From positions 372,001-436,000 of the forward strand of contig NW_024104430.1 in NCBI RefSeq assembly GCF_003945595.2: 64,000 nucleotides of DNA, given 5' to 3'. The DNA comes from Pipra filicauda (taxonomy: Eukaryota; Chordata; Aves; Passeriformes; Pipridae). The stretch's first letter is position 1; each line of letters starts with the position of its first letter. The position numbers and the translations under genes are program-made. Of this stretch, positions 3,570 through 36,660 are shown in pieces. Under the pieces are notes generated by a model. The model worked only from the letters and a program-made list of their open reading frames with translations. It was not told the DNA's origin and did no database searches.

Positions 3570-4670
3570 TGTGTGATGGTGCATTCTCCCCCTTCTTCCT
3601 TGGGGCTATTCTATGATTTCAGGAATTCCCATCAGGCCTTGGCCTTTGTGTAATGAGCAGTAAAGTGTCCCTTGACTACTCCAGAAACTCTTGCATGGCT
3701 AAAGTGGGGGCAGTATTGTCTATACCAAGAGCTTCTGTTACCTGACCGAGATGGGGAACAAGTGATCATCTGTCATCCCCACCCACTTTAGAACATTACC
3801 TGAACTGTATCCTGAGTGGAACAGTACCATTGTTACTGGACTTTTTAAAAATTCCATCAATTACCAATATGGGTTGTGGTCAGGAGAGAAACGTACTGAT
3901 GACTAAAGTCAAACATTTTGAGGCTCCCTAAACAGTTGTCTTGAGTGAGACCCTTTGAGTTCTTCTGGACCTCAGGAGGCTGTATCAGGATCTTCCTCTG
4001 AGTGGGACACCTCTCAGAGCTTGGAAACTCTCAGGTTCACAATACTCAAGGACCACTGCTGAAAGCTGATGATGGGGACCTGAGCTTATACCCCCACTCC
4101 TCAAGGGTCAATCCTCACTTGTATTGAAATGCCAAGAAATTTGAAATAAGTATTTCACAGAGTTCGAGGGGAATTTTTTTAACAAGTACCTTTGTACAGT
4201 TATCCATGTATATGTCTTTGTGTCTATGTGTGTGTATATGTGTGAATTGATTAAAATTCCCTATATGAAGTATGGTATAAATATTGCCATCTTGGATCTA
4301 TAATTAAGTGATTGTATTAAATCCTGTTGCTCAGTCTGTAAATGCTAAATTAGTCAGTGATTAAGTGCTGCTAAATCCTTTAGATATAAACCACTGACAA
4401 AGTCTGAGACTAAGATTGGATTTAGCCATACTTAAGCTCTGTCAGGAGTTCAGAAAGCAAGAGTTTCTACTCTGAAACTCATTACTCAATTACAAGAGTC
4501 TCCCTTACTCTTTTGCATCTCCAGTCTTTCTATAAATCATTCTAGCTTGATTCCAACTCAACTTTCCTTTGTTTCATCGATGTAGTAAAGAATAGAGTGA
4601 AATTTGACATTAAACTTTAATGTCACACCTTCGCAAATTTATATTAAACCTCTTATTTTATTTTTTTTTT
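3570..4670 (+). mobile_element. Old ERVL-like solo LTR
   Basis: Likely an old endogenous-retrovirus LTR on +. The best evidence is the block 4377-4442, which aligns over about 65 bp with 23308-23377 in the LTR at 22.9-23.6 kb: both contain 'tttaga.ataaac', then 'gacaaagtctg.gactaag', then a 'ggatt.agc' segment. Flanking pieces also correspond, for example 'ggatcttcctctg' near 3988 against 'ggatcttctctgg' near 23158. The order of blocks fits U3-R-U5 on +, starting TGTGTGATGG. It is longer than the 740-bp copy, mainly from extra AT-rich sequence at 4150-4370. No TSD was found and both edges are approximate. No internal viral genes are attached. Confidence 0.55.
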
Positions 4671-7558
4671 AGTATGTTTGACAGTGATTCTCTAAGTGCC
4701 CCAAACCATTCATTTGTGACAAAGGGTTCGAACCTTGAGATGCAAGAAATGCTTGACTTGTGTTCTGGTTTTCTACTACAACTCTTTTATGTCTGAATGA
4801 TGGACAATAAGAGCAATAACTTTAAAAAGTTTAAAAAGTTAATGGTGTTTTTAGAGTTTCTTTACGTCTTTTGTGACTAGATGATACAACTACATTCTCC
4901 AAGGAAACCAAATTGATCAAATTACTCTCAACTTTATAGACATTAAAACACCTACTCCAAACAATCAATTATTATCTTTGCTTCTATAAAATATCTTCCT
5001 GTCATCACTGATGAGGAGGACAGTAAAGGAAAAAATATCCATAATGCAACATCTTTTTTTATTTTCTTCATTACTTGAGTGTGGCTTAAAAATATAACTG
5101 AGAGCAGAATATAGCCCAGGTTTGTTTCTTTGTTTGCTCATAATAATCCAATTAAGAAGTGCATATACTCTCTCATTATACCATTCTGAAACAACCTTAG
5201 GTTGAATAATATACCTCCCCTTGAATGAAAAGAGAAGTAAATACGTTTAGAGAGAGAGAGGGAGAGGAACATGTGGAAGGCATGTAGGATGTTTACCATA
5301 GAAATTGCCCATGTCTTCTCTTCACAGAAGAGAAGGTGTAGATGCACAAGTAAAAGGGACAGAACAAGGTGATAAAAGCAATTTGGATGAAACAATGCAC
5401 CAATGCACATGCACTGAGATTGTATTGCACTGTGACTGACTAAACTGGTCTCTGCAATGACTTTTTTAAAAAAGTGGGTAACATAGACTTTGGAAACTCC
5501 CATTTTTACATGAAAAGACTCTACAAAGATCTTTTGAATTAAGAATATCAGGGGATGCTTTAGAACACTGTTTTGTTCTTCTCACAAGCCAGAGAGTGAA
5601 ACACAGAGTATTTTATTTCCCTAACTACCTCAGTGCTGGCCTATTTTCCATTGTATGTCTATAGAGAGATTAGATAATATGGATTAAAGACTACTCTGCT
5701 GTCTGAGTAGTGGACTGTAAGTGAATTTGAATGTGTAAGAGGGGCTCTTTTTGATGAGCGTATGCCTTGCAGCTAGCCTAAAGTTGCATATCAGGGCATC
5801 ACCTTGCAGTGCAGATGACAGATCCCACAACATTTAGCTATCTATGAATTAATGATGCACACCCAATAACCAGTGTAAGCTTCATTACTGGTAAAGACAC
5901 AATGCAGATATGCACACCTAGGATCCTAAGGTACTGCAGCAAATAATTTTTTCTTTTTTTTCTTTTTTTTTCTTTTCTGATACAGCAGTTGAACTTTATG
6001 AAGAAGTGCTTGTACAGCAAGTTTCATGACAGAGAAAGAAGAAACTTAGGAGAAATAGAGTTAACCAGCTAGAAGATTTAAATTTATCTGATCCTTGAAG
6101 GCTCAAGAGGCCAAAAAAGAAAAATGTTTGTGCTAATCTTTAATCAAGGGAACAATTTTGCTTGCTGATGGCAGTTCAGTTTAAAATAATAAAAATAAAT
6201 AAATATTAATAAAATAAAAAATCCCCCTTACTAAAATTCTGAACTATTTTTATTCTGTTTCTAATACAATATCTACAGTGAACGTTTTGGCTCCAGAGGT
6301 TTCTGAGCAAGAATGAGTTCCATTAAGATCAGTGAAAAATTGCTAGGGATTACAGTGGAAACAGATTTCACACTTCAGGCTCCTTCCCCACAATCCCCTG
6401 TGTAAATCCTCAGCTGTACATAGATGCCAAGTCTGCATGGTCAGCTCTTAGGTGCCTGCAAATCATATGAACACAAATCCAGAACTACCTCTGGATGGAA
6501 GGACTGTGGCACCCTTCGTTTTCTCCTCTCCTCTTGATAAGCATATATAACACTGACTTGTAGAAGAAGGTTTAGCAGAACATTGTGTCTACAGTCCTCT
6601 TTGTATGAACTCCCAGCAGGAGGATAAAACGGGGTAGAGCTTTTGCTCTCAGAAGAAGTAGGCAGTTTTAGAAGCTGGGTCTAGGTAGGACAGTCTTTCT
6701 GACAGGCTTTCTGTAGATTTTTTTTGGGTGCTACCTGAAATAATCTAAATAAAATGCACAAAGGATGCTAGGAGCAGAATGTAGGATTCACTGTAACCAC
6801 TGACCTTACACTAACTCTTCCTTTCTTTCTTTGTGAAACAAGAGGGTCGTATGTACGTACCCATAGCTTGTTGTATAAGGTCTGTTCTGGGAGCTGGAAG
6901 AAGTCAGTTCAAAACCCACAAATCGGAGGAGAGAACAGATTCCAAATTTCTTGCTTTTAAAGTGATTTCTCTGAGCTCACATATATTAGCATACAGCAAA
7001 CCACCAGTACAGTACTAAAAGGAAATAAAAAAGTGATCTGTTTTGCATTTCTAAAAGGAATAATTCAAGTCCCAGAGACAGGATTTTGGACTGAGAATCA
7101 GTCACATCTATTTCCAGTTCTGCACTCTCTGCTCCTTACTGCATTTTTAAAACTGTTATTATGCACCTAAATTTATTTTCAGCCTTATAGGATTTTGGTG
7201 GTTCTGTTAATATACTGTATTTAATACTTTGAAAATTAACTAAGATTGTCAGTGAGACTAAAATTAGACTAAGAATATAAAAGCACAAAAATTATTCAGG
7301 TTGGAGGTAATACAAAGAATCAGGGATTAGATTTCAATCCAATTTTACTTTTCCTTCTGGACACATAATTGGAACCAAATGCATACTTTAATATAGCAAC
7401 TGTTACTAATCTGCAAGAAATTGTAAATAGCGACAGAACATTGCAGTTACATAAAGTTTATAGGGAAACAAAAAATCAGAGAACTATAGAAGATAATGCA
7501 GCTGTATACTTTGAAAATATACACACATGCTATTCTGCTGTTCCAAAGCCCTGATTAT
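4671..7558. other. AT-rich non-coding DNA
   Basis: No gene recognised. It contains a short (AG)n run at 5249-5262, a pyrimidine tract at 5947-5979 and an AT-rich run at 6181-6225. A 121-codon frame at 5138-5503 (-) has no domain or signal that I recognise and is treated as chance. Confidence 0.5.
5947..5979. repeat. Polypyrimidine (T-rich) tract
   Basis: About 33 bases of almost pure T with interspersed C. This is a simple-sequence tract. It could be the poly(A) remnant of a minus-strand insertion, but no retroposed body was recognised beside it. Confidence 0.7.
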
Positions 7559-7665: not shown

Positions 7666-8091
7666 ACTGAAAGCATATTACCTATGATAAGGCAAATTAC
7701 TATAGATGAGATATATGGTTGAAATAATGCAAGAAAAATGTAGAGACATCAGGAGAGACATGTAGGTAGTCAAATTCATTGGAAAGGTTTGCTTTTTCCA
7801 TATGTGGGATTTATGAAACAGTAGCCCTCCTGATCTTGATCATGAAAGGCTGAAGTTGCTGTGAGAGGCACCATAAGAATATTCACAACCTCAAGTTCTT
7901 ATTTCTTCACTCAGGAAATAGTGTGTGTGTCACTTTTTTCCTCCCATCATTTCCTTGAGTTTGTATCATGACTCACATGCCCATTAGCACAGCAACTACA
8001 TTTTTGAAAAGTTAAAAGAAGTACTGTGTTTCTGAATGCATTTAATTCTGTCAGTAGCTGACACAATTCTTCACTCTTTTCCATGCCATGT

Positions 8092-8213
8092 ATGTCTTAT
8101 ATGTCTATCTCGTATTGGCCTCATAAGCCACCAGTGTACTTGTAACGAACGTGGATAGAACCTTCCTAAATCTTCATTCGCGAAGCCTAGCCATGAAAAA
8201 TGGGATGTCTTAT
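8092..8213 (+). repeat. 9-bp target-site duplication around RTE copy 1
   Basis: ATGTCTTAT occurs at 8092-8100 and, perfectly repeated, at 8205-8213. The two copies flank the RTE fragment exactly. This is the signature of target-primed reverse transcription and fixes both ends of the insertion. Confidence 0.9.
8101..8204 (+). mobile_element. RTE-clade LINE, 5'-truncated 3' end (copy 1)
   Basis: A 104-bp insertion on + carrying the end of an RTE-type LINE. From 8102 a frame reads CLSRIGLISHQCTCNERG and stops at TAG 8156-8158. The SRIGL-SH pattern is typical of the extreme C-terminus of RTE-clade reverse-transcriptase proteins. Only about 46 nt of 3' UTR follow, containing 'cttcattcgcgaag' and ending 'gccatgaaaaatg'. 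A perfect 9-bp TSD flanks it. Copy 2 at 8776-8886 is about 91% identical over the shared ~92 bp, and the tails of the two SINE copies match its 3' UTR. The clade assignment comes from the peptide motif. AviRTE is the known avian RTE and the likely identity, but I recall this rather than having searched it. Not translated in the host. Confidence 0.85.
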
Positions 8214-8763
8214 GTTACTGTGTGCTTTGCTTTTGTTTTACATCTCTGGGAGCCTTTGTCACCTAATCGCAGGTATGGTGAGACTGAGGAAAGCATTCCC
8301 AATTTTACTGCTCAGATTGATGGCATTGCAGATATTATCAACAACTTATATCATCACTATTTAGTGCTTTCAAGAGGTTTCCTCTACTAGATGATGAAAT
8401 TATAGCTATTAAGGTTCACCAGGACTGTTATGAAATATGCATATACTAAGGTGGATTGTAGACCATGTAGTATGGAATTACTGGAAGGGGATGATGATGT
8501 AAGTATGATTTCATTATACATCCATTAGCACAGAGGAGTTGGAACAATCTGAAGTGGTCAAAGATGACTGTATTATGCACAGTATTATGTTCTATTCAGT
8601 GTGGAAACTGGTTTGACTTAAGGCACACCAATGACTGCTGCAATGTACAATTGTTTAGAACAGTGTCAGTGGCTAAGGCTGGAAGTAGAGTTTGGTGGGA
8701 TTGTAGTGTGGTCCCTGAGTTGCAAGAATATTGCAAAGAGGAATAAGACAACCAGAAGCTGGT
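8205..8763. other. Spacer between two inverted RTE ends
   Basis: About 550 bp with no recognised element. Frames of 60-98 codons here are chance or shadows of the RTE ends. Confidence 0.5.
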
Positions 8764-8898
8764 AACCACTTTCCTCCACTCCATGGCTGGGCTTCGCGAA
8801 TGAAGATTTAGGAAGGCTCTATCCACATTTGTTACAGGCACGCTGGTGGCTAATGAGGCCAATACGAGATAGACACATCCGATTGCAACCATTTTCCT
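8764..8898 (-). repeat. 12-bp target-site duplication around RTE copy 2
   Basis: AACCACTTTCCT at 8764-8775 and AACCATTTTCCT at 8887-8898 (one mismatch) bracket the second RTE fragment. This shows it is an independent insertion and not an inversion copy of the first. Confidence 0.85.
8776..8886 (-). mobile_element. RTE-clade LINE, 5'-truncated 3' end (copy 2)
   Basis: A 111-bp insertion on the - strand. Read on that strand it ends in RMCLSRIGLISHQRACNKCG, then TAG (8821-8819), then a 3' UTR of about 43 nt with the same 'cttcattcgcgaag' element as copy 1. It retains a few more 5' codons than copy 1. The flanking 12-bp TSD differs from that of copy 1, so the two inserted separately at sites about 570 bp apart in opposite orientation. 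The family is inferred from the C-terminal RTE motif. Confidence 0.85.
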
Positions 8899-9808
8899 AC
8901 GAAACTATAAAATATGACTGATTTATACAGAAAACAAAATCTAGGACTGGTTTATGTAGAAAATTGGAATACATTTAAATGCATAGCTGCTTTGAGAAGA
9001 ATCAAATGCAAATTAAATTTATTTCTTAAGCATTCGAAGTGGATCAATTGCACTGGTTAAACAGAAACAAAACTTTGGCATTACATTTCACACTGACATA
9101 ATAAGGGGCGCCTCATTTGCTCAAGGAAATTTTTGGGACAGCCTTTTTGTGGATCTTTGTGTGCAAGATACTGTTGATCTAGCCTGAGATAGCATTTTCT
9201 ATTATGCTGTTTTATATGAATGTCTTTAACAATAACTTTCAATTATCTTGTGGCTGTAGTTCAGTATATCTGCACAATATGGTGAACCTGTTGTGATTTC
9301 TGCACAGCTTTTGCATTTGTTCATCACAAACAGATCTGGAGGAAAGCTCAAGAAGAGTCATTTAGGAAGGCTTATCTTGAGCTTGGTCCTCATGAAGATT
9401 TTTCCTACTGCCTTTTCCTCCTTCTTGTGCTAAATGACCAAGAGCTCCTTCTGCACCTGGATGCACAAAGGAGGTAGCAGAGACAGAGATGGAACACAGG
9501 AGTGCTTCTATCCTGGAGATGGGCTGAAAGACTGAAAGTGTTGTGGAAGGTCTCAGAGAGGACTGAGGAAGAGGAAAGGAGAAAAGTCGGAAAGGACAGC
9601 TACAACTAGAATCTACATATTTTTTACACCTACTTTTCTGCCTGGGTTTCTACTGTCTGCTGATCTGAAGAGAAATGATTTTCATTTTAAACAGTGCTAG
9701 TTTCATTCTGTATATTGAACCATACTGAACTGAGAAAGAACAGAAGAGGTCAGTGAGATCATCCCCAGGTCTCAAACTAGAGACTAATATGCCTAAACTT
9801 TACATTGC
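8899..9808. other. Non-coding DNA
   Basis: No gene or repeat recognised. Slightly more GC-rich around 9340-9600, without a usable reading frame. Confidence 0.5.
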
Positions 9809-10740: not shown

Positions 10741-13051
10741 AATTTATCATTAGTGCACTGCCTAAGCTTAGTTCTCTTTCAATTCCAAGGAAAAGTTAAA
10801 TGATTTGTGTAATGAACTGAAACAAAAAGAATGAAAGCAAGACTTCATGTCCAATGACAGAAAGGTTGTTTTCAGAAATTAATTGTTTGTACCACTTGCA
10901 GATGTAACTCCTGCAAGCATCTTCTAGAGTAGTTTGTTTATGTAATTTCTCTAAAGTAGTTTTACAAGTCTTTTGTGGCAAAGTTTCAACACTTCCTTTC
11001 CTGGCCACTCTACAGCAAATGTCAGACTCAGGGAGCTTTTCAAGATAAAAAATCTTTATGAGCCAGCAACAAATAAACCATGATAAAATGACTGCATATC
11101 TAATTATATGCCACTTGATCCACATGACACACTTGTAATAAAGTTTTTACATTTTCAGATTTTTAATTTACAAGCTTGTCACTTGCAGTTTAGTCATTTT
11201 GTTCAGATAGGGTGAAAAATTTCTTAAGGTTCTTCTAATTGCCAATTCTTATTTCTCAGTTCTAATTATGCATAATACTTTTATTATAAATCACACACAC
11301 ACATACACAAGAGCAACTTGTGGTACAGAATCTAAGACAGCGAGTACTGAGTGTAAAGGACTACGGTAGATTATACTTGGTAAATGTTAGTATCAAATGC
11401 TGAAAAATTGTTTCTTTAGCAAAGAAAACAAAGATCTTCTCTTTAGCAGAGAAGATTTCTAATTGCTGTATACTCACAGAGTATCACTAAGGTAAAGTGC
11501 TACTTGCTTTCGAATCATTTAGAACTAGAAGAAAGATGATAATTAGAGAACTGTTAAGTAATTTTATATATGGGAGGTTTACTACACACACTTCTTACTG
11601 AGTAAATAAAAGTCTAGACTTTTAGAAAACTGCAGGTGGGCAAAGCTTTTGTAGAAGTCTGCCTGTATAAAACCCCTCTCCTGAAAAGTTTTACAACACA
11701 GTGGTAACCAGTTAGTTTGCAGGATTCAGTTTATAGGTCATCTTTGTGACAGTCCAGGTCACTTATTTCACTAATGGCCTGCCTTCCTAGATGTAAAACA
11801 GTTTTCCTGCTCTGGTATGCTCTGTTGATGTGCTCTGTCATTCTCCTTGACCAGGCTGACCAAGCAGCAATCAGAGGTGGGAATGTTATAGAAAGCATAT
11901 GAAGAGGAAGCAGAGGGAGATTAACCAGCAGTGGTTTCCTATTATTATGAAGGTTTACAGGAGGGATCTTCCTTGTTACTATTTCTTCATAACAAATCTG
12001 TAAAGAGTGACTGGAGAAGATGAGAAGAGCAGTATCATTGTAACAACAATTTGAATGGAGACACCATGACAATGACAGTGGAGTAAGAGGGTCAGTAAGG
12101 AGCCAGCTGATGACAGCTGATGATAGGGAATACTGTTAGACTCCTGACTGGCGGGAAGGTAATTCAAAAAACCCTTGCTAATTCAGGTTTCTCTGAACCG
12201 CAATTTATTTTGCCTGACTCCCTAGGCCCCTTTATTTGCTACTGGAAAAATAGTTATTCATGGGTGCCCCATGCTGTAATTTCTTTACCGTGCTCTTTGG
12301 CTGGATAGTTAAGCTCATGGACAGTCTTTCTGCTCAGCTTTAGCTTTCGTTTGCAGGCCTTTGGCCAGTCTTCTATTTTGCTTTCTTCTGCTGAGACTGA
12401 CAAAAGTCATGTATATTTTTTCTTCTGCCATGGATGTGATTTCCCCCATGTATGTCTCTCTGGCTCACTCCAAGAGAATAAAAGTGAAGGGCTGTGTGAC
12501 AGCAGCACTGCTTGTTCAAAAATATCGTGAAGTGGATCAGGGCCAAAAAGAAAATAGGATATTTTATTGCTGGTCCTGGAAATATCAAGTTTTCTACTTA
12601 GCTGTTTCACCTTCACTTTACAGGCCTTATTCTTCCATAGCTTTTTCACTTTAAAGCTCTCTGTTTAAATTGTCTGTACTTGAATGATTGGCTCTTGGAA
12701 CATAATACTGTTGTTAAGTCTTACAAGAAAAGAATTGCAATTTTGCTTGGTTAGAAGGGGCTCTTCTAAATAGTGCAACTCAGTGCTGAAATGCCTCTCT
12801 TCAAGGGCTATTTCTGAAAGTCCTTTATGTGCAGAACTCTGCTCATGCATGCCACGGGTGGGAGTGGAAGGCTTAGACAAAATTTATTAAAAAGCTCTGC
12901 TGTTGAGTCACAAGTTGCAGAAAGGACTGCCTTGCTTTCTAAATCCTTTCTCAGAGAGGAGTCTGAATATGCAGCAGTATGGCTGCATCCAATCTTAGTC
13001 TTGGATTTTGTCAAAAGTTTAAATTTAAAGGAATTATAGAGGTGTCATTAA
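10741..13051. other. Non-coding DNA
   Basis: No gene or element recognised. A short CA-rich microsatellite lies at 11290-11308. Overlapping 60-113 codon frames on both strands at 11731-13039 have no common domain and look accidental. Confidence 0.5.
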
Positions 13052-13795: not shown

Positions 13796-14418
13796 TTAAA
13801 TGAGTAGGTTACATTTCCAGATTACAGACTTGACATTGTAAAAATATACTGTGTATACAAAAATATTTGGCTCAAATGTATATGAATTATTCAGATTTAG
13901 TAAGTATCTAGAACTTCATCTCATATATGTACATTTTTTCTCATATATCCCAACTCTTCAGCAAACAATTTGAGCCAAAAAGTCCAGATTTCAAGTATTT
14001 GAGTACCAACATAGAAACACAGAGTTTCAGCAGTAATCATAATTTTACGTTTTTAAAAACTCCCAAATCACCTAGTAGGTTGAACCTTACTGAAAATCAA
14101 AAACACAAGATTTGCAAAAACCTCTGATAAGTGATCATATTGTAATGCTGACAGGTAAAACAATGAAACTCATTTTGTATTACAAAATTTAAGTTCTATA
14201 AGAAGTAAATTTAACATAGTTTGGTGTTTGTGACTGTTGAATCTCTAATCTCTGTGTTTACAGAAGAGAAATTAGTTTCTGGACATAACTATATTTAATA
14301 TAGTAGTAAATAGTGTGGCAAAAATTTAATCTCTACTTGAATATAATCTGTAACTCTGATACATAAAGTTCCTGAAGCTGTAAAAAATAGATATCTTTCA
14401 GGAATTTACCAGAACTGC
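13796..14418. other. AT-rich non-coding DNA
   Basis: Nothing recognised. Confidence 0.5.
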
Positions 14419-14434
14419 ATATGCTATAAGGGGC

Positions 14435-14506
14435 CCCCTGGTGGTCTAGTGGTTAGGATGCAGCACTTTCACCACCGCGACCCGGGTTCGATTCCCGGTC
14501 AGAGGA
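14435..14506 (+). pseudogene. tRNA-Glu(TTC)-like head of the SINE
   Basis: 72 nt closely following vertebrate tRNA-Glu: D-arm 'tggtctagtggtta', anticodon loop CTTTCAC (anticodon TTC = UUC), and T-arm 'cccgggttcgattcccgg'. The acceptor stem is degenerate (CCCCTGG against TCAGAGGA, with an extra base). There is a SINE body directly downstream, so this is not a functional tRNA gene. Confidence 0.88.
14442..14495 (+). promoter_or_regulatory. RNA polymerase III A and B boxes of the SINE
   Basis: The A box TGGTCTAGTGG (14442-14452) and B box GGTTCGATTCC (14485-14495) are both intact matches to the tRNA internal promoter, spaced as in a tRNA. The copy could still be recognised by TFIIIC; expression is not known. 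Confidence 0.75.
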
Positions 14507-14772
14507 GTTCCCTGGGCAGATGGAGCTCGTCAGCCCTGTAAGGCCATCCATCTAAGAGAAGGTCACTCTAATCAAACCTACGTCCTGAGGACCTCGCTGC
14601 CACTGTCCGACCTTCGCTCGGCCCCGGCAGATAAACCTTAGGATTAAAGGGTGGGCTCAGTTCAGCACACACTGTGTCTCACCTGAAAAATCCACTGCAC
14701 AGGCTCGAAGGGTTAATGACCTTTCCCAAATCTTCATTCGCGAAGACTGGCCATACTACTACTATATGCTAT

Positions 14773-16445
14773 GAACAGAATCTGAGATATATATGCAGAA
14801 AAATATGGGTGACTGTGAGGAATAGAAACTTCTATAACCTCTCTCTGGTGCTGGCAGAAGGAAAATCTGCATACAGTGGTATTTTTATCCTAAAATTATA
14901 TTAATAACTGCTCTTGCAGGAGCTGAAGCATGGTCAAATGCAGGTGTTTTGATTTCGTTTTGTTTTTTCATTTTTTTTTCCAGAAGCTATATCTAGATTT
15001 TATGTCTCTATTTTTTTCTGCTTGTTCCTATTAGATTAATAGACCTTGTGGTCTTTGAAGATAATATTCCTGCCATGTACGGCTCTGAAAAAAACATTAG
15101 GAAAACTAATTCATTATTAAACAATTACAGTCATAAATTGTGGAACATTAGCCTAAGCACAAGTGGCTTAATAGTGGCATTTTTTCTTAATTTCATCCAG
15201 ATATTTCAATAATAGTAACCTAGAAAATAATTTTTCTCATGATAGCTGGCATGTCTGAATACCACCACCAGTGGGCAATAATGGGCCTTTTATTCTCATT
15301 TTTGAAGCTAACTCTGTCCATGAGAGAAAGAGAAGAAATAGGAATCTTTATAGCGTCTGAGAGCTGGTCCTGTTCTAGTAACTCCTGACTAAAATGGGTC
15401 TGTTTATTTTCTTTGTACTGCCTTCATAGAGCAAGACCCTCTTTCTGTCCAGCATTAGATGCCTGTATAATGTTAAGTATAATCAATTCTTTATAAACTC
15501 CCCTTTCCTCACTTCCTCTTCTTCCCATCTGAACTTATTTGAGCATTTTCCTTGCTAATGCAGAAGCATTTTGAAGTGTTGAATGTGTGACTAAGCTTGT
15601 AGCCAATGTAGTGAGCTAAGCACTTCAAATAAAGATAATAGCAGTTAGGGAGGGGGAGAGAGGAGAGAGAGGAGAGGGAAAAGATTCACAGAGAAATTAT
15701 GTTTGAGAGATGTAAATCTTGGGCAACCTTCAGTCTGCTCCAAGACTTTACTGTGTCTCAGGGACTATAGGTAGAGGTATGACTCAATCTTTCAACCATA
15801 CTGCTTAGGTGACCACCTGTGCTGCTTCATTAACTGCCCTACTGACTTTGAGGTTTTGTTCCCTTGGACCCCAGCTAAAGGTATTTTAGTTCATCCCACC
15901 TAAAACGTGTTTTAGTGTTCATGATGAAATCATAGTCTCTTTTTCCTCTTTATTGAGTTCTGCTCACAGACCAGCTTAAATAAGGTCTCTTCTTATGTTA
16001 ACAGTAGTAATACACTGACAAGCACAAAATTCAACTAGTTCTGTGCAAACAAAGAAAGAAATGTTTTTTATTTGCCAAAGCAGGTAACAACTATAATAAA
16101 ACTGTTATACAAGTATGAACATGGACCTTATAGCCACTACTGGCTAAGAGTTTACAGCAGAAGTAGTATGGAAAGAGAGAAATGCTGTGGAACCAACAAT
16201 TTTTTTACATCCCCTGCAGGACAGGAGAGCTCCTGAGGGTAGCATAGGCATGTCTCAATTGTCAGGCATTTAGTTGTTTTAGTTACTCTTCCACAGGCAT
16301 ATGGTTCAAGATTTTTTATTATATATCATATTATTTCCATAGGGGACTTTATGGTAGTAGCATCCAGTGTGGGACTCAAGTGTTTGAGGAAATTAAGAAT
16401 CACACAATAAAAGGAGTTAATATTAAAAGGTTGGTTTTGTTGGTT
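14773..16445. other. Non-coding DNA
   Basis: No gene recognised. A purine-rich (GGAGA)n-like stretch lies at 15643-15680. Confidence 0.5.
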
Positions 16446-17398
16446 TTTTTCTCCTGCTTGAAGGGCCCTTACTTTTCAACATCTTCAAAAATGACTTGGA
16501 CGAAGGATTGGAAGGGATATTAAACAAGTTTGCAGATGACACAGAACTGGGAGGAGCTGTTGACTCCCTCAAAGACAGGGAGGTCCTGCAGACAGACCTT
16601 GACAAATTACAGGACTGGGCAATCACCAACCATATGAAGTTCAACAAGGAAAAGTGCCACATTCTTCACCTGGGATGGGGCGACCCCAGATATTCCTACA
16701 GACTGAGGAATGCAATTCTGGAAAGCAGTGCCATGGAAAGGGACTTGGGAGTCCTGGTAAATTACAAGTTCGATATGAATCAGCAGTGCCCTGGCAGCCA
16801 GGAGGGCCAACCATGTCCTGGGTGGCAACAGGCAAAGCATCGCCAGCCAGTCAAGGCATGTGACTGTCCCGCTCTGCTCTGCACTGGTGCGACCTCACCT
16901 TGAATATTGTGTGCAGTTTTGGGCACCACAATATAAGAAAGATAGGAAGGTATTAGAGAATGTCCAAAGGAAGACAACGAAGATGGTGAAGGGCCTTGAG
17001 GGGAAGCCGTAGGAGGAGTGGCTGAGGTCACTCGGTGTGTTCAGGCTGGAAGGGAAGACGGTGAGGGGAGACTTCATTGCAGTTACAACTTCCTTGTAAG
17101 GGGAGCAGGAGGGGCAGACACTGATCTCTTCTCTGTGGTGATCAGTGACCCGAGGAAATGGCCCGCAGTTGCGTCAGGGGAGGTTTAGGCTGGATATCAG
17201 AAAAACTTAGACAGTGGTTGGGTGCTGTAACAGGATCTCCAGGTAAGTGGCCACAGGGCCAAGCCTGACAGAGTTCAAAAAGCTTTGGCTAATACTCTCA
17301 GGCACACGGTGTGACTCTTTGGGATGGTACTGTGCAGGGCCAGAAGTTGGATTCGATAATCCTTGAGGGTCCCTTCCAACTCAGATTCTGTGAGACAA
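16446..17398 (+). mobile_element. CR1 LINE fragment with open RT palm segment
   Basis: A 5'-truncated CR1 on + that starts in the RT palm at a GPLLFN-like block (about 16458) and runs to a normal CR1 3' end ('gggtcccttccaactcagat' near 17368). A frame open at 16496-16903 contains FADDT (16529-16543), the catalytic palm motif of LINE RTs. It also contains the MKFN..KC..LHLG thumb-side block about 50 residues later. Beyond about 16790 it is frameshifted ('cagcagtgccctggcagcc'), and the C-terminal part (16900-17090) is readable only with gaps. It differs from the CR1 at 1.0-2.1 kb and seems to be another subfamily. Not a functional gene. Confidence 0.9.
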
Positions 17399-20300
17399 GA
17401 TCAAACAGATTCTACACTGCAATGTAGATCCAAGAATAGTTACTTTGGCTCTCTAACCCTGTAGGATCCTGAATTCATTAAGCACCTACCCCTTTAATCT
17501 GAAATCTCCCTGATCACCTTTCTTGCCAATCAATACTCAGTTCTTGTGCTGGAAGGCAGAAAGGAATGACTGGGGAAGCACCAAACATGACTGCTTTAAG
17601 CTTATGGCTTCAGCTGCTGGCTGCAAATCAAGGTCTTCTTCCAGGTTGTGGGACAGAGTCCTGTTCTGCCCACATAAAGCTCAAAGCCAACTAGGCAAGA
17701 GCCAAGTAGCAATACTCGACTTTTTACTCTCATTTGGAGCTCGGAGGCACTAAAAGGTATCCTTGAGGGGAATGGGGGGGAAATAGATGTTCCAGGAAAC
17801 CACTGAAATAGGACTTAATTAAGAGGATGACATCTCCCTCTACTGGTCTTAAAAGGTACCTAATTAACATAAAATTGGAGTCTCAAAGGTTTCATTTTAA
17901 CTTCTGTCACTCCTGGGACAGAATGTCTTATCTTGGGAGCAGGGAAAATCAAACAGGAAACATTTGACCTAAACCAGAACCAGATAGAATCTCTACTAAT
18001 GTACAGCTCATATCTATGGTAATGCAAATAAAGCAACAAAAGTGAGGAATAGAATATAAAATACGAGAAGGAATTTTCTCTGTGTTCCAATTTAAATGTA
18101 CTGAACCAGAGAAGGATAAACAACAATGAAAAAAAATAGAGAAAAAATGCTGTGTGTTCCTTTTTTGATGGCTTTTGCAAACTAGTAAACATCACTAATT
18201 CACTGAATTAGCTGAGACAGCTTGCTTCAGTTGTTCTCTTAGCATATGGTCAGATGCATAATGCTTTGATTTATCAATGGACAATTCTTATTTTACAGCA
18301 ATATGGTTATAGTTTCCCATTTACTTGTAAAATTCTCATTCAATCAATGTTAAAATTGCTCTAATAAAACAACAGATAAAATATGAAAGGCTTGTAAGGA
18401 GATAAGGAGGAAGACGAAATGGATGTCAAGGAAGATTTTGTAATAAATTACTTAGAGTATTGTGCATATTTATATGTATGTTTTTCTGGGAAGATCTTTG
18501 CAGGAATAAAATATATAAACAGTTATCTTGTATTAGTTATCAGATCCGGTGTCCATTTGAATAGAAGGTGGGAAAACACTGAAAAAATTTATTTCAAAAT
18601 AATAATTCAAAATCTCTGAGAGCATATTCCTTCTGTTTAGGAAAATGGATGTGAATATTTGTGATGTGAGTAAGCTACATACAAGTATTCACTGAGACAT
18701 TCATTCACACAAGGAGATTTTGCAAAGCCATTTTGAAAGCTCTGTATAGGTTTAATAATTGTCTGATGGGGAAAAGAAACATGTGATTTAGGAGATTAAT
18801 TATACAATGTGAATATCAATCACAAGCTCCTGCTATTCAAACAATAACCCCAGCACATCCACAGTCCAAGATATGCTTTCACTCAGCATCTGTCAAATAA
18901 TAAGCAAATTGTTGTCATTGAATGAAATTAACAGGGAAAAAAGATCATAAATAGTCTGTCTCACAGAATCCAGAGTTTCCTTAGAGACAATGCAAATCAG
19001 TGGAAGTTACTGAGGATGGGCAGCCTTGGGGTCACAAGCTGTGCTTGGTGTGTTTGCTGCTGACCAGCATCCTGCTTTTCTCTGGGCAAGAGGGGCTCAG
19101 GTACTGTAATGAACTTTGATCTTTTTGTGAGCACAGCCGTAACATCAGTAAGAATGGCAAGCTGCAGGTGATCGACTGCAAACAAGAATACAGACAAGAT
19201 AATTCATAGTTGAAATAGTTCTGTAATTTAGCTCCTCTTTTCTACCAGTGGGGAAATGTAAGGATGTGTTAATTTGTATGTACAGCAATAAGATCTACTT
19301 GCTTTTCAGCCTCACAAACTGTATTCAATACCTATACCAAAATAGCCCTTTGAGTATATTGGATGGAAATGGGAAATAAACAGAAGCTTGCTTTTAGCTT
19401 TCAATGGAAGGAGACCTTGTATGTCAAGTAACAAGGTAAAGAACAAGAGGCAGTGAAGGCCAGCCTTTCACTCTTGCGATGGTTAGGTTTTGTCTGAGAA
19501 TTAGAGAGAGTGTAGATAATGAAACAGAGCTGTGCATTAAATACACACCATAAAAAGTTCTTGACTGAAAACAGGGGCCTGTGTAGCTAAAAGAGGATTC
19601 CAGCTCATGCTACTCATCAACAAATGCAAGTGTAAGACTATAAATCTCCTTACTAGCCCTCTATACCTCACTATGAAATATGCAGAAAGACATATATACA
19701 GAAGTCAAGTTTAAGGAGAACAAAAATTTAGATATAGATCATTACCCTTCATAAGATAACCAGAAGCTTTAAATTAAGAAGTTGAGGATGCAATGTGTTG
19801 AGAAGACGTCATAACACTTACAATACCTGGAGATTAAATTTTACAGAGTTCTGGTGATTGTCATAAATGAAATTGCCTCCAAGAGGGCTTGTTCTGTATG
19901 ACTTTTTTTTTCCATAGAACTAGTCTTCTGTGTTAATTTTCCCAGGACAAGAAACCAAGTGCCAAAAGTTGTGCAAGAAAAAAATTTAGATATTCAGCCA
20001 TGAAATATAAAGTGAGAAAAACAGTCAATTACAAAGCAAGGAAATGCTTTTTAGGTACTTGGGGATTAGAAAAAAAACAACATGACACGAGATCATGTGT
20101 CATGAGATGATGCATGACTTGCCTTTAAAGCACAAGGCAAAAGGGCCTGAGCTGGAATTCAGCATCCAATCTCAAATACAAGGACACTGTACATGTCCTG
20201 TCATGAAAATTCTGCTTGTCAGAAGAATAATTTACCTAACTCTGTACATTAAGTTAGTAGAAGCTGCATAGGGTTAGCCCAGACTGCATTGGTATCTCCC

Positions 20301-21173
20301 TGTCTCTGGTGACTTACTCAGGACTGCAGGGGAGCTGCCTTTCAGCTGGGAGTTATAGCTCGGAAACTTGAAGACTTTTATCTGCAAATTTGCCTTGAAT
20401 GTCATGAATAAGGCTATTTCATTATTTTCTTTAAAACTATAATGGTAAAGGTAACGTTATGTGTCTTTCAAGTCCACTGCTCAAAGTCAAATATTTGTCC
20501 TGTTCCTGAGCCTATGCGAGAGAATTCAGCCACATTTTCCTGCCTCACTGGTGTACCCTTGCTGTAAACTTTACAGCTGTAAGGAAGGATAAATGCTCTC
20601 CAGGGCTGCTGTTAAGTTGAGCTCTTATGCTGCTGGGAGTATTAAGCTCACAGAGAGGTGAGCATGCTTCTGTAGTCTATTGGTAATATTATCTATTTTG
20701 AAGTTGGAGGACCTGGATACAAGGAAAAGTAGAAATTGTATTAATGCATTTTATTTTGAACTGCAACTAGATGGAAGTCAGAAACAACCCTTAAGGCCCC
20801 TTTCTTGTTTAGAAACAGAAATAAGCATCCTAATAGTAACTGCTCTCTCCTCTGCATTGCAGTCAAAAGATGCAGTTTGCAAGTACACCCTGCCGACCTG
20901 TGTAATCTGCCTGCCTACGGAAGATTGCTACCACTGCAACAGTTGGAGTTCAGTCATAGTGTACGTGACAGAGTGTTTCCCTGTAAACACTAACCTACTG
21001 CCTTCCATAAAAAAATCCAGCTCCAAACTACAGTTAGCAGCACTCCTGAGTTCAGAAGCCCTATAGGTGACATTCACTCCTTCAGCTGATGATGCCAGAG
21101 CTCAAGTGGCATCAAATGCAAGGACATTGTATGAAACTGGTGGATCTTGCATTTTTTTTTCAATTGTAGATAA
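17399..21173. other. Non-coding DNA
   Basis: No gene or mobile element recognised. The frame at 20680-21066 (+, 128 codons) lies immediately before the SINE insertion, resembles no known domain and lacks gene context. Confidence 0.5.
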
Positions 21174-21485
21174 TTGTAGATAAATTTTTCATTTTTCATG
21201 GCCAGTCTTTGTGAACGAAGATCTGGGAAAGGTCATTACCCTTCGAGCCTGCGCAGTGGATTTTTTAGGTGAGACACAGTGTGCACTGAACTGAGCCCAC
21301 CCTTTAATCCTGAGGTTCATCTGCCGGGGCCGAGCGAGCTTGGACAGTGGCAGCGAGGTCCTCAGGACGTAGGTTTGTTTAGAGTGACCTTCTCTTGGAT
21401 GGTCTTACAGGGCTGACGAGCTCCGTCTGCCCGGAGGAGTTCCCTGACCGGGAATCAAACCCAGGCCACGGCGTTGTAGATAAAT
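21174..21485 (-). repeat. 12-bp target-site duplication around SINE copy 2
   Basis: TTGTAGATAAAT at 21174-21185 and 21474-21485 (perfect). The left flank also has an adjacent partial repeat TTGTAGATAA at 21164-21173. Confidence 0.92.
21186..21473 (-). mobile_element. tRNA-Glu-derived SINE with RTE tail (copy 2, 5'-truncated)
   Basis: Minus-strand copy of the SINE at 14.4 kb, 288 bp long. The 5' end is cut inside the tRNA head: the B-box half (21446-21473) remains and the A box is gone. The body and tail align with copy 1 at roughly 90% identity apart from small gaps, including a 4-bp indel. The tail ends 'gactggccatgaaaaatgaa' on the - strand, the same terminus (CCATGAAAAATG) as RTE copy 1. 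The RTE-like hairpin core is mutated here ('cttcgttcacaaag'). The truncation at the tRNA end and the 12-bp TSD support LINE-type target-primed integration. Confidence 0.9.
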
Positions 21486-22870
21486 AATGGCATACCAAAT
21501 ATCTGTAGATGGTTGAGACAGAAGAGTAGTAACTGTAATAATCTTTATCTCTAAATCTATGATATAAACAATCTTGGAAGGATCTAAATCAAATAAAGAT
21601 CCAAATACAGCCCAGCATGAAAACAAGTGTCATACCTACTTGTGTTCTTGCGTGGTGGCATATTTCATCCTGGAGTGCTGAGCGCACTTTGTAACTTTAG
21701 CTCCATGTTTGTAAATGACAGTTTCTGTGGAAATGCAAGGATACCTCTGCTCAGATCAGATGACACACCCATGGCCACATCCTTTTAAAGTGGTAGACCT
21801 CAACCAGTTTTACTTCACATCACAAATTTACAATTAACTTTTTGTCAGTGTGCAGCTCCTGTGTCACACTTTGTAGCTTAGAATACATGGGGAACACTGA
21901 CACATGGTAGTACCACAAAGAGTCTCTTTATTTGTATTGGGTTTGTGTGCTACCCACTATGCCTTCTGTTCCATCTCAAAAATATCATTATCACTTTTTT
22001 CTTAGTAAAATTGTCTTTTGTTTTATTAATTCTCTGTAGATGAAGAGAGTACTAATTTACCCTGCTACTTCATTTTTTAAACCTTACTGTTACTATACTT
22101 CAGCTTTTCAACTCAGAAGTCATAAGCAGATAAAATTTCTGCTATATGTGATTTGGGTGTGGGTCACAGCCTTTCAATGAGGATTACACAGGAGTTCATC
22201 TGTGAATGTAAAGAAACTCCAGACTGTGAGATGTATCTGTAATTTGCTACATCAGTGTCACTGTCTGGGTACCAAGGCTGAAGTAATCGTTTGTCATTCC
22301 AGGTAGGTTCTACACTCTCCATGCATGCTACCCAAACTCAGTCTCCCAGGTGCTGATAAGAAAAGAACGAATGATTGTTCCTATTTCTCCAATTGATTTA
22401 ATTACCTTTTAAACTAACCTGGAAGTATAATATTATTGAATAATTAAATAAACAATCAGTAAATAATTCTTCTTATGTTTATGAAATCATATAAAACTAG
22501 GATTACTGAACAAAAGCATTTAGTAATCAGCAAAAAATGTGGGGAAATGGACAATATTCCTCATAGGAAGCAAATCAGTAGGGGTGGAATTTGCCCAAAG
22601 GTGCCTTTCTTTTCTTAGTGGTGACTTATATGTTAGGTTTTCTTTCTGTTTATATGGTTGCCGCTTTGGTGGGAACAAGATCAAATGAGGTCTATTTTAA
22701 AACTTTAATGCCATAATTTATTACAGATTCTTTTCTCTGTCTAATGGGAGAAAAATAATGTGTGCTAGGAGTACCTATTGTTCCAATGCACATTGAAAAA
22801 ATCCATGTAACAATTCTCTCTGCAGCAGCTCTATACTAGCATGACCTCACTGAAATCAGTGCAGTTGTGA
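21486..22870. other. AT-rich non-coding DNA
   Basis: Nothing recognised. Confidence 0.5.
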
Positions 22871-23100: not shown

Positions 23101-23558
23101 TAGTGGACAGCCCAGGGTTTGTTTATCTGCCCTGCACAGCCATGGTCTGCAGGCCAGGATCTTCTCTGGATCACGGGTACCTCCCAGGGTCACTCCTCGA
23201 GGCTGAGAGATTGCTTGCCACAGTAGATTCTTGGTAACTGATCAACAGCATGCTATAACTTGACATCTTATTTAAGTGATACACAGGGTTGACTGTACAC
23301 ATACAGTCCTTTAGACATAAACTGTTGACAAAGTCTGGGACTAAGTCTGGATTCAGCTGCACCTAAACTCCCCTCTGACAAGGTGGTTAGAGTAAAAGAT
23401 GGTTCTTTTTAAACCTCAGGACTCAACAGGAGAGTCTTCCTGACAGTTGTGTTTGACCCTGCAATTTCTGCAGTAAATAATCACTGTACCTTGCCATCGA
23501 GTTTTGTTAAACCACTGTGGCCTTCACTAACCAACTTTGTCAAATCACCATTTATATC

Positions 23559-29600: not shown

Positions 29601-29852
29601 ATTTTTCCTCATTCCCACAATTTTCCTCATTGATCTCCCACTTCTAGTAACTAGTAAAAAGATGCAGAAAATGTCAGTTAAATCAGAGGTTAATTGTGAG
29701 GTTATTTCTTTCTAGGTTTTGCCACAGCTAAAACAAAAACAAGAGAAGCAGGCTAAAGATTGCTATTTAATCACTGACCTAAAAGGCCTTTCTGAAGAAG
29801 TTATGACTTTTTTCATCTGACTAATTTCTACTTCTTCCTACAATCCTAAATA
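23621..29852. other. AT-rich non-coding DNA
   Basis: No gene recognised over 6.2 kb. It contains a (CA)11 microsatellite at 26381-26402. A stretch at 27526-27590 faintly resembles a LINE RT block ('gggcttgaaaaaccttttga' then 'gaaagtccatcacagg'), but I cannot extend it. Confidence 0.5.
26381..26408. repeat. (CA)11 microsatellite with short GA extension
   Basis: Eleven uninterrupted CA units followed by GAGAGA. Potentially polymorphic. Confidence 0.95.
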
Positions 29853-35140: not shown

Positions 35141-36660
35141 GGATACAGAATTTTCAGGAAGGATGGGCTGGGACAGCAAGGATGAGAGAGAAATGTGGTT
35201 GTATGGAGCTTTGCCTTGGTACAGGTGATGAGCCAACTGACCTTGTGAGTCAGATTATGAGGCAGAATAACAACATCAGTGATGTTGTGGGTGTTTGCTA
35301 TAGAGAACCTGATCAGGAAGAAGAGGTTTTTCCTGAAAAGCGTTTTTACTGAAGAACAGGCAAAAAGCAGGATCCCAACCCATGATTTTAGAAGATCAGA
35401 CTTTGTACAGTTCCTGCATTTTCTTGGAAGAATCTCATGAAAGGTGGCCCTGGAGAGAAGAGGGGTCCAAAAGAGCTGGTTCATATTCAGCAATTACCTG
35501 GTTGAAGTTCGAGAATGGTCTGTGCTGATGAGCAGGTAGTCAAGTAAATTTGTCAGGACACTTGCATAGATGAACAAGGAGTTCATGACAAAATTCAGAC
35601 ATGAAAATTACATGTAAAAGAGGTGGAAAGAGGGATGGATGACCTTGGAGGAATAGAAAAGCATTATCTAAGCAAGGGTGGAGTTAAGAAAGCCAAAATC
35701 CACCTGAATCTGCCAAGGCAGTTGAAGGAAAATAAATGTTTCTACAGAAATATCAGCAGGAAAAGGAAGGTTAGGAATAATGTGGGCCTTCTCCTGAATG
35801 GAGCAGGGGAACTTGTAGCAAAGGAAATGGAAAAGACCAAGATACTGAATGCCTTCCTTGACTCAGTCTTTACCGGTAAGATTAGCTTTCAGGAATATGA
35901 GATCTCTGATATCAGGGAGAAAGTCTGAAGCAAGGAAGACACCCTCATGCAGAAGTATCTGATTAGAGAACATTTAATCAAACTTTACAGACATAAATCC
36001 AAGGGACCTGACAGGATGTACCCACAAGAGCTGAGGGTGACAACTGTCCCTGAAAGGTCATTCTCAACTATCTATCAAGTCATTGTGACTTGGAGAGACT
36101 GCTGAAGGCTAGAAGAAAGAAAATGTTGTCCCTACCTTCAAGAAGGCAAAGAATGAGGAAACTACAGACTTGCCCATCTTGCATATTTCCTGGGAACGTA
36201 ATGGAGCAAAGCCTCCTGGAAATAATTTCCAGACCCATGAAGGACAAAAAGGTGACTGGGGAGTCATCAACATGGATTTACAAAAGAGAAATCTTGCCTA
36301 ATCAACGTGATAGCTTTCAGTGATGAGATGACTGTCTTGGTGGATGAGCGGGGAACACTGAATATTGTCTATCTTGACCAGCAAGGGTTTTGACACCATC
36401 TCCAGTAACATCATTATAGATAAACTGATAAAGTACAGGTTAGAAAAAGAGATGGTGAGATGGATTAAAAACTGTCTGAATTGCTGGTATCAAAGCTTTG
36501 TAATCAGCAGCAGTCAGATCAGTTCCCTCCTCTCGCAGGGATTAGCTCCAAGGTTCCCCAAGGACTCGGTGAACAACAAGGTTATACAAAAAAATGAAAG
36601 CAACAAAGACATTCTGACAAGCAGGAAGCAAGATCTTTTTTCCTATGAAACTCAGACCTA
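35141..36660 (+). mobile_element. CR1 LINE ORF2 fragment: endonuclease end to RT fingers (copy B)
   Basis: About 1.5 kb of CR1 ORF2 on +. In order it holds an endonuclease segment reading GVCYREPDQEEE (about 35293-35328, CR1-typical), then the endonuclease-RT linker (35395-35480). Next comes a KENKCFYRNI..NVGLLLN..GELV block (about 35728-35820) with NAFLDSVFTGK (35849-35881), the region upstream of the RT. RT blocks follow: GNVMEQ..LE..SRPMKDKKV (36193-36255) and FDTISSN..IDKL (36388-36430). It stops before the catalytic FADD block near 36570-36660, so it lacks the palm and any 3' UTR. Frameshifts separate the open pieces. Non-functional. Confidence 0.88.

Follow-up and report, generated by a model that had tools for sequence, protein, structure and literature searches.

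The two SINE copies identified in the window (the whole 64-kb stretch of DNA that was analysed) are with high confidence ManaSINE1, or a SINE of the same anatomy, mobilized by the AviRTE LINE, probably with a nick placed about one helical turn past a run of T's. ManaSINE1 is a composite of a tRNA-Glu head, a piece of the AviRTE 5' UTR and the AviRTE 3' UTR, and its hosts are manakins and tyrant flycatchers (Suh et al. 2016, PMC4844689). Each of the three parts was observed here: the tRNA-Glu head (37 bits with Rfam; 64/71 identical to human Glu-CTC), the AviRTE 5'-UTR fragment in both copies (a published primer pair spanning 127 and 126 bp) and, provided that the LINE ends in the window are AviRTE, the full AviRTE 3' UTR of about 40 bp. 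We infer that the sequence is ManaSINE1 itself from this anatomy rather than from an alignment with the deposited consensus. The first-pass annotation had recognized a tRNA-Glu SINE carrying the 3' end of an RTE LINE, which the head and the tail matches bear out, and had suggested that the SINE might be undescribed. The latter must be withdrawn, as the anatomy of ManaSINE1 is already in print (PMC4844689, Fig. 1 legend) and this kind of element has been known since 2016. The element itself confirms published biology, and the possible novelty is a target-site mark of a bird RTE at four out of four insertions.

SINE1 (14428..14763, + strand) is a full-length copy, recognized by similarity, its tRNA head, a target-site duplication (TSD) and primer matches, and SINE2 (21186..21473, - strand) was recognized by 88% identity to SINE1, a TSD and primer matches. 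These are the two copies found in the 64-kb window. In the window self-comparison, they are identical at 252 of 285 aligned columns (88.4%, E 8.5e-86). Their K2P distance amounts to 0.130 (288 columns) and falls to 0.099 (248 columns) once CpG positions are excluded, which would correspond to a divergence of roughly 5-6.5% per copy from the common source if both copies drifted equally. SINE1 is flanked by an exact 9-bp TSD, ATATGCTAT (14419..14427, +; 3' copy at 14764-14772), and SINE2 by an exact 12-bp TSD, ATTTATCTACAA (21474..21485, -; 3' copy at 21185-21174). These TSDs abut 14428/14763 and 21473/21186, the very limits first proposed for two related copies, whose relationship is likewise real. 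Internal TTTT is absent from both SINEs, and a 31-mer from the body had no match in a collection of viral contigs and a 20-mer none in genome contigs, both collections being non-animal.

The head of SINE1 (14435..14506, +) scores 37.0 bits with the Rfam tRNA model, against a gathering score of 29, and ARAGORN calls a tRNA at the same positions, albeit without a clean anticodon. In a comparison with nine human tRNAs, on which all Glu-CTC and Glu-TTC scores rest, the top-scoring reference was Glu-CTC (64 of 71 positions identical), followed by Glu-TTC (45/58). Both pol III promoter boxes are found in this head, the A box TGGTCTAGTGG at 14442-14452 and the B box GGTTCGATTCC at 14485-14495 (both +). 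Both copies had been credited with a tRNA-Glu head, which applies to the whole head in SINE1, while SINE2 has only a 3' remnant (21473-21440, -), identical at 31 of 34 positions to the 3' half of human Glu-CTC. This remnant keeps the B box (GGTTTGATTCC). SINE2 begins inside the tRNA head, is without an A box and is 5'-truncated, so that one of the two copies is full length.

The body, which the first-pass annotation had left as an unidentified stretch of about 210 nt, is recognizable as AviRTE 5'-UTR sequence. It occupies 14507..14717 (+) in SINE1 and 21439-21235 (-) in SINE2. The published AviRTE 5'-UTR primer int-F matches at 17 of 21 positions in each copy (14584-14604 and 21346-21366), and int-R at 18 of 19 in SINE1 (14692-14710) and 17 of 19 in SINE2 (21241-21259); for each primer, the two SINEs are the two best sites in the window. 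The primers span 127 bp in SINE1 and 126 bp in SINE2 (21241-21366), and the published amplicon is 126 bp (PMC4844689). When 200 shuffles of each primer were scored in the window, the shuffled int-F and int-R primers reached at most 16 matches, against 17-18 for the real ones. Matches above shuffles at the published spacing thus identify the SINE bodies as AviRTE 5'-UTR sequence, an assignment that could be made from the window plus printed primers and is a useful addition.

The other eight of the ten published AviRTE primers do not exceed the best of their own shuffles in the window: 1R, 2F, 2R, 3F, 3R, 4F and 4R score below it, and 1F equals it (15/18 at 6376-6393, -), a match taken as chance. 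Between the int-F and int-R sites lies the motif GGCCCCGG (14620-14627 in SINE1 and the same place in SINE2). ManaSINE2 and BuceSINE carry this motif in their GC-rich heads, where it is described as possibly bound by a protein (PMC4844689), and those heads may be related to the body of the present SINE.

The tail connects the SINEs to two LINE ends in the same window. RTE-A (8101..8204, +) is the end of a 5'-truncated AviRTE-type LINE consisting of the last ~18 codons and the 3' UTR, and RTE-B (8776..8886, -) is a second such end, 91% identical to RTE-A over 97 nt in the window self-comparison. A self-alignment spanning 8099-8878 was read as these two inverted ends merged and was left out. The tail of SINE1 (14718..14763, +) runs through the AviRTE 3' UTR to GCCAT (14754) and closes with (ACT)3; that of SINE2 (21234-21198, -) is followed by the end GAAAAATGAAAA. 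The SINE1 tail is identical to RTE-A (8158-8194, +) at 32 of 37 positions (E 8e-6 within the window) and to RTE-B (8819-8783, -) at 31 of 37 (E 6e-5). SINE2 aligns with RTE-A at 36 of 45 positions (E 7e-6) and gave no match to RTE-B at E 0.01 in the self-comparison. The common part is 37 nt to GCCAT, close to the ~35 nt first described, with a variable end of 7-12 nt after it.

The C-terminal frame of RTE-B ends in SRIGLISHQRACNKCG and a stop, and that of RTE-A reads SRIGLISHQCTCNERG and a stop, a peptide that we take to be an RTE C-terminus. The homology between SINE tails and LINEs begins at the stop codon of this frame. That LINE homology was confined to the region beyond the stop codon, as the first-pass annotation had it, is correct for the 3' segment and fails for the body, which is also AviRTE sequence. 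The C-terminal frame and the 3'-UTR length of both LINE ends fit AviRTE, whose 3' UTR is about 40 bp long (PMC4844689). The 3'-end primer 4R matches the 3' ends of RTE-A and RTE-B at only 15 and 14 of 19 positions, and its shuffles reach 16, so the name AviRTE for the LINE ends derives mostly from the SINE with its two UTR pieces and from the ~40-bp 3' UTR. The missing ORF primer sites fit with both LINE ends being truncated.

Across the compared tails (8158-8202, 8776-8819, 14718-14763 and 21186-21234), the SINEs share differences from both LINE ends, namely CTTTCCC versus CCTTCCT and GACTGG versus GCCTAG/GCCCAG, which suggests that the SINE source took its tail from a different AviRTE subfamily or that this tail drifted after capture. 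A candidate hairpin, CUUC-AUUCGC-GAAG, can be written in RTE-A, RTE-B and SINE1, and SINE2 breaks one pair. Folding gives weak support to this hairpin as a conserved signal for recognition: it is not the best fold in RTE-A, and by the fold z-scores of the tails (RTE-A -1.05, RTE-B +0.62, SINE1 -2.03, SINE2 -1.35) it is not clearly stable.

The strongest competitor of ManaSINE1 is an undescribed SINE with the same three-part plan of tRNA-Glu and AviRTE sequences but an independent origin, in a different bird lineage that carries AviRTE. AviRTE SINEs with different heads have indeed emerged in parallel (PMC4844689), and the likeness to ManaSINE1 was judged on anatomy. The main text of that paper has the term tRNA-Glu once, for ManaSINE1, and gives the other four named SINEs heads of 5S rRNA, 28S rRNA or GC-rich sequence. 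As parsimony also prefers the known ManaSINE1, we regard a separate origin as improbable.

Other repeats occur in the window. The segments 1981-2090 and 17301-17400 have the ends GTCCCTTCCAAC...ATTCTGT, presumably CR1-like 3' ends, which would point to a bird or other sauropsid. Three repeat copies (4372-4515, 12869-13036 on the - strand and 23307-23460) are 65-69% identical over 134-165 columns, and 1016-1330 and 36188-36504 are 64% identical over 324 columns; a third member of one repeat group (D1) at 29838 (65%) was taken as chance. With a tRNA head and CR1-like ends nearby, the copies might be thought to be passerine SINEs mobilized by CR1, like TguSINE1 and PittSINE. In those elements, the head derives from tRNA-Ile or tRNA-Asp and the 3' end reads AUUCURUG (PMC5729268), whereas the present copies have a Glu head and close with GCCAT and a short variable sequence. 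The CR1-type 3' end ATTCTRTG is absent from both SINEs, which close with (ACT)3 or GAAAAATGAAAA after GCCAT, and an origin by CR1 is hardly credible.

An AviRTE origin is further indicated by the insertion sites. The LINE ends are also flanked by TSDs, the 9-bp ATGTCTTAT in RTE-A (8092-8100 and 8205-8213, +) and the imperfect AGGAAA(A/G)TGGTT in RTE-B (8898-8887 and 8775-8764, -; 11/12), so that TSDs of 9-12 bp, one of them imperfect, are found at all four insertions. Of 3000 flank pairs drawn at random from the window, 22 reached 9/9, 9 reached 11/12 and 4 reached 12/12. All four TSD-flanked insertions are taken as real retroposition events.

Bov-B insertions have a "Tn-TA" signature, in which three T's are located ~10 nt before a TSD that starts with A and is usually preceded by T (PMC13295347, 2026). 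The signature is known from squamate and bovine Bov-B and from legume RTEs, with similar observations in horse and elephant, and most RTE-clade LINEs are suspected to show it; for birds, it "remains to be elucidated" (PMC13295347). Here, T runs of three or more nucleotides span -14 to -12 at both LINE and both SINE insertions: at 14405..14407 (+, -14 to -12) for SINE1, 21499-21497 (-) for SINE2, 8077-8080 (+, -15 to -12) for RTE-A and 8912-8909 (-, -14 to -11) for RTE-B. Measured from the T run to the first TSD base, these intervals are 8077-8092, 8898-8912, 14405-14419 and 21485-21499. The TSD starts with A in all four and is preceded by T in three (by C in SINE1), and the TSD of SINE2 possibly starts one base later, with T, because the end of the element is A-rich. 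TSD boundaries were fixed before the signature was considered.

With a broad criterion (last T of TTT at -8 to -14), the window background is 0.19 and the binomial P 0.0014, and three narrower intervals give P of about 2e-4, 2e-5 and 3e-6; the intervals were set after inspection of the flanks, the broad one following the wording of PMC13295347, and the P values are accordingly not those of a blind test. With n = 4, the T-run mark at AviRTE and SINE insertions is a lead. AviRTE and its SINE probably follow the Tn-TA rule of Bov-B and plant RTEs when they insert. If true, this would extend the signature to birds and would be evidence, independent of the tail, that a single endonuclease was responsible for the LINE and the SINE insertions. 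No AviRTE insertion profile was found in PMC4844689, PMC13295347 or PMC8665684, which does not prove its absence.

That the mark is alike at LINE and SINE insertions counts for the AviRTE explanation. The opposite notion, that the SINE has no relation to the RTE and the tails match by chance or through low complexity, could appeal to a tail of just 37 nt and is contradicted by the E value of 8e-6 in the window, by a body that also matches AviRTE 5'-UTR primers and by this same T-run mark, and merits practically no credence. Very probably, the SINE used the enzymes of the RTE LINE.

Tailed SINEs are transcribed by pol III, recognized through their tail by the LINE protein and inserted by target-primed reverse transcription, which is the standard mechanism. 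In the case of the present SINE, pol III would transcribe the RNA from the tRNA-Glu head, and the AviRTE protein would bind this RNA via its 3'-UTR-derived end and nick the DNA at sites where a short T run lies about one helical turn upstream. Reverse transcription of the SINE RNA at the nick would then result in TSDs of 9-12 bp and sometimes in 5'-truncated copies such as SINE2.

Compared by anatomy, ManaSINE1 has the same head, 5'-UTR fragment and 3' UTR as the element described here, with no difference known. GymnSINE, ManaSINE2, BuceSINE and MeloSINE share the bipartite tail of AviRTE 5' UTR and 3' UTR but differ from the tRNA-Glu head found here, that of GymnSINE being 5S rRNA, those of ManaSINE2 and BuceSINE GC-rich and that of MeloSINE 28S rRNA (PMC4844689). 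TguSINE1 and PittSINE are also tRNA-headed passerine SINEs and are distinguished by their CR1 tail and tRNA-Ile/Asp heads (PMC5729268). Outside birds, a parallel plan is seen in Bov-tA of ruminants, which joins a tRNA-Glu promoter to the tail of Bov-B, an RTE-clade LINE, and for which both the LINE and the host are different; in the same source, Bov-A2 is listed with a BovB 5' end and a Bov-B tail (PMC3747384).
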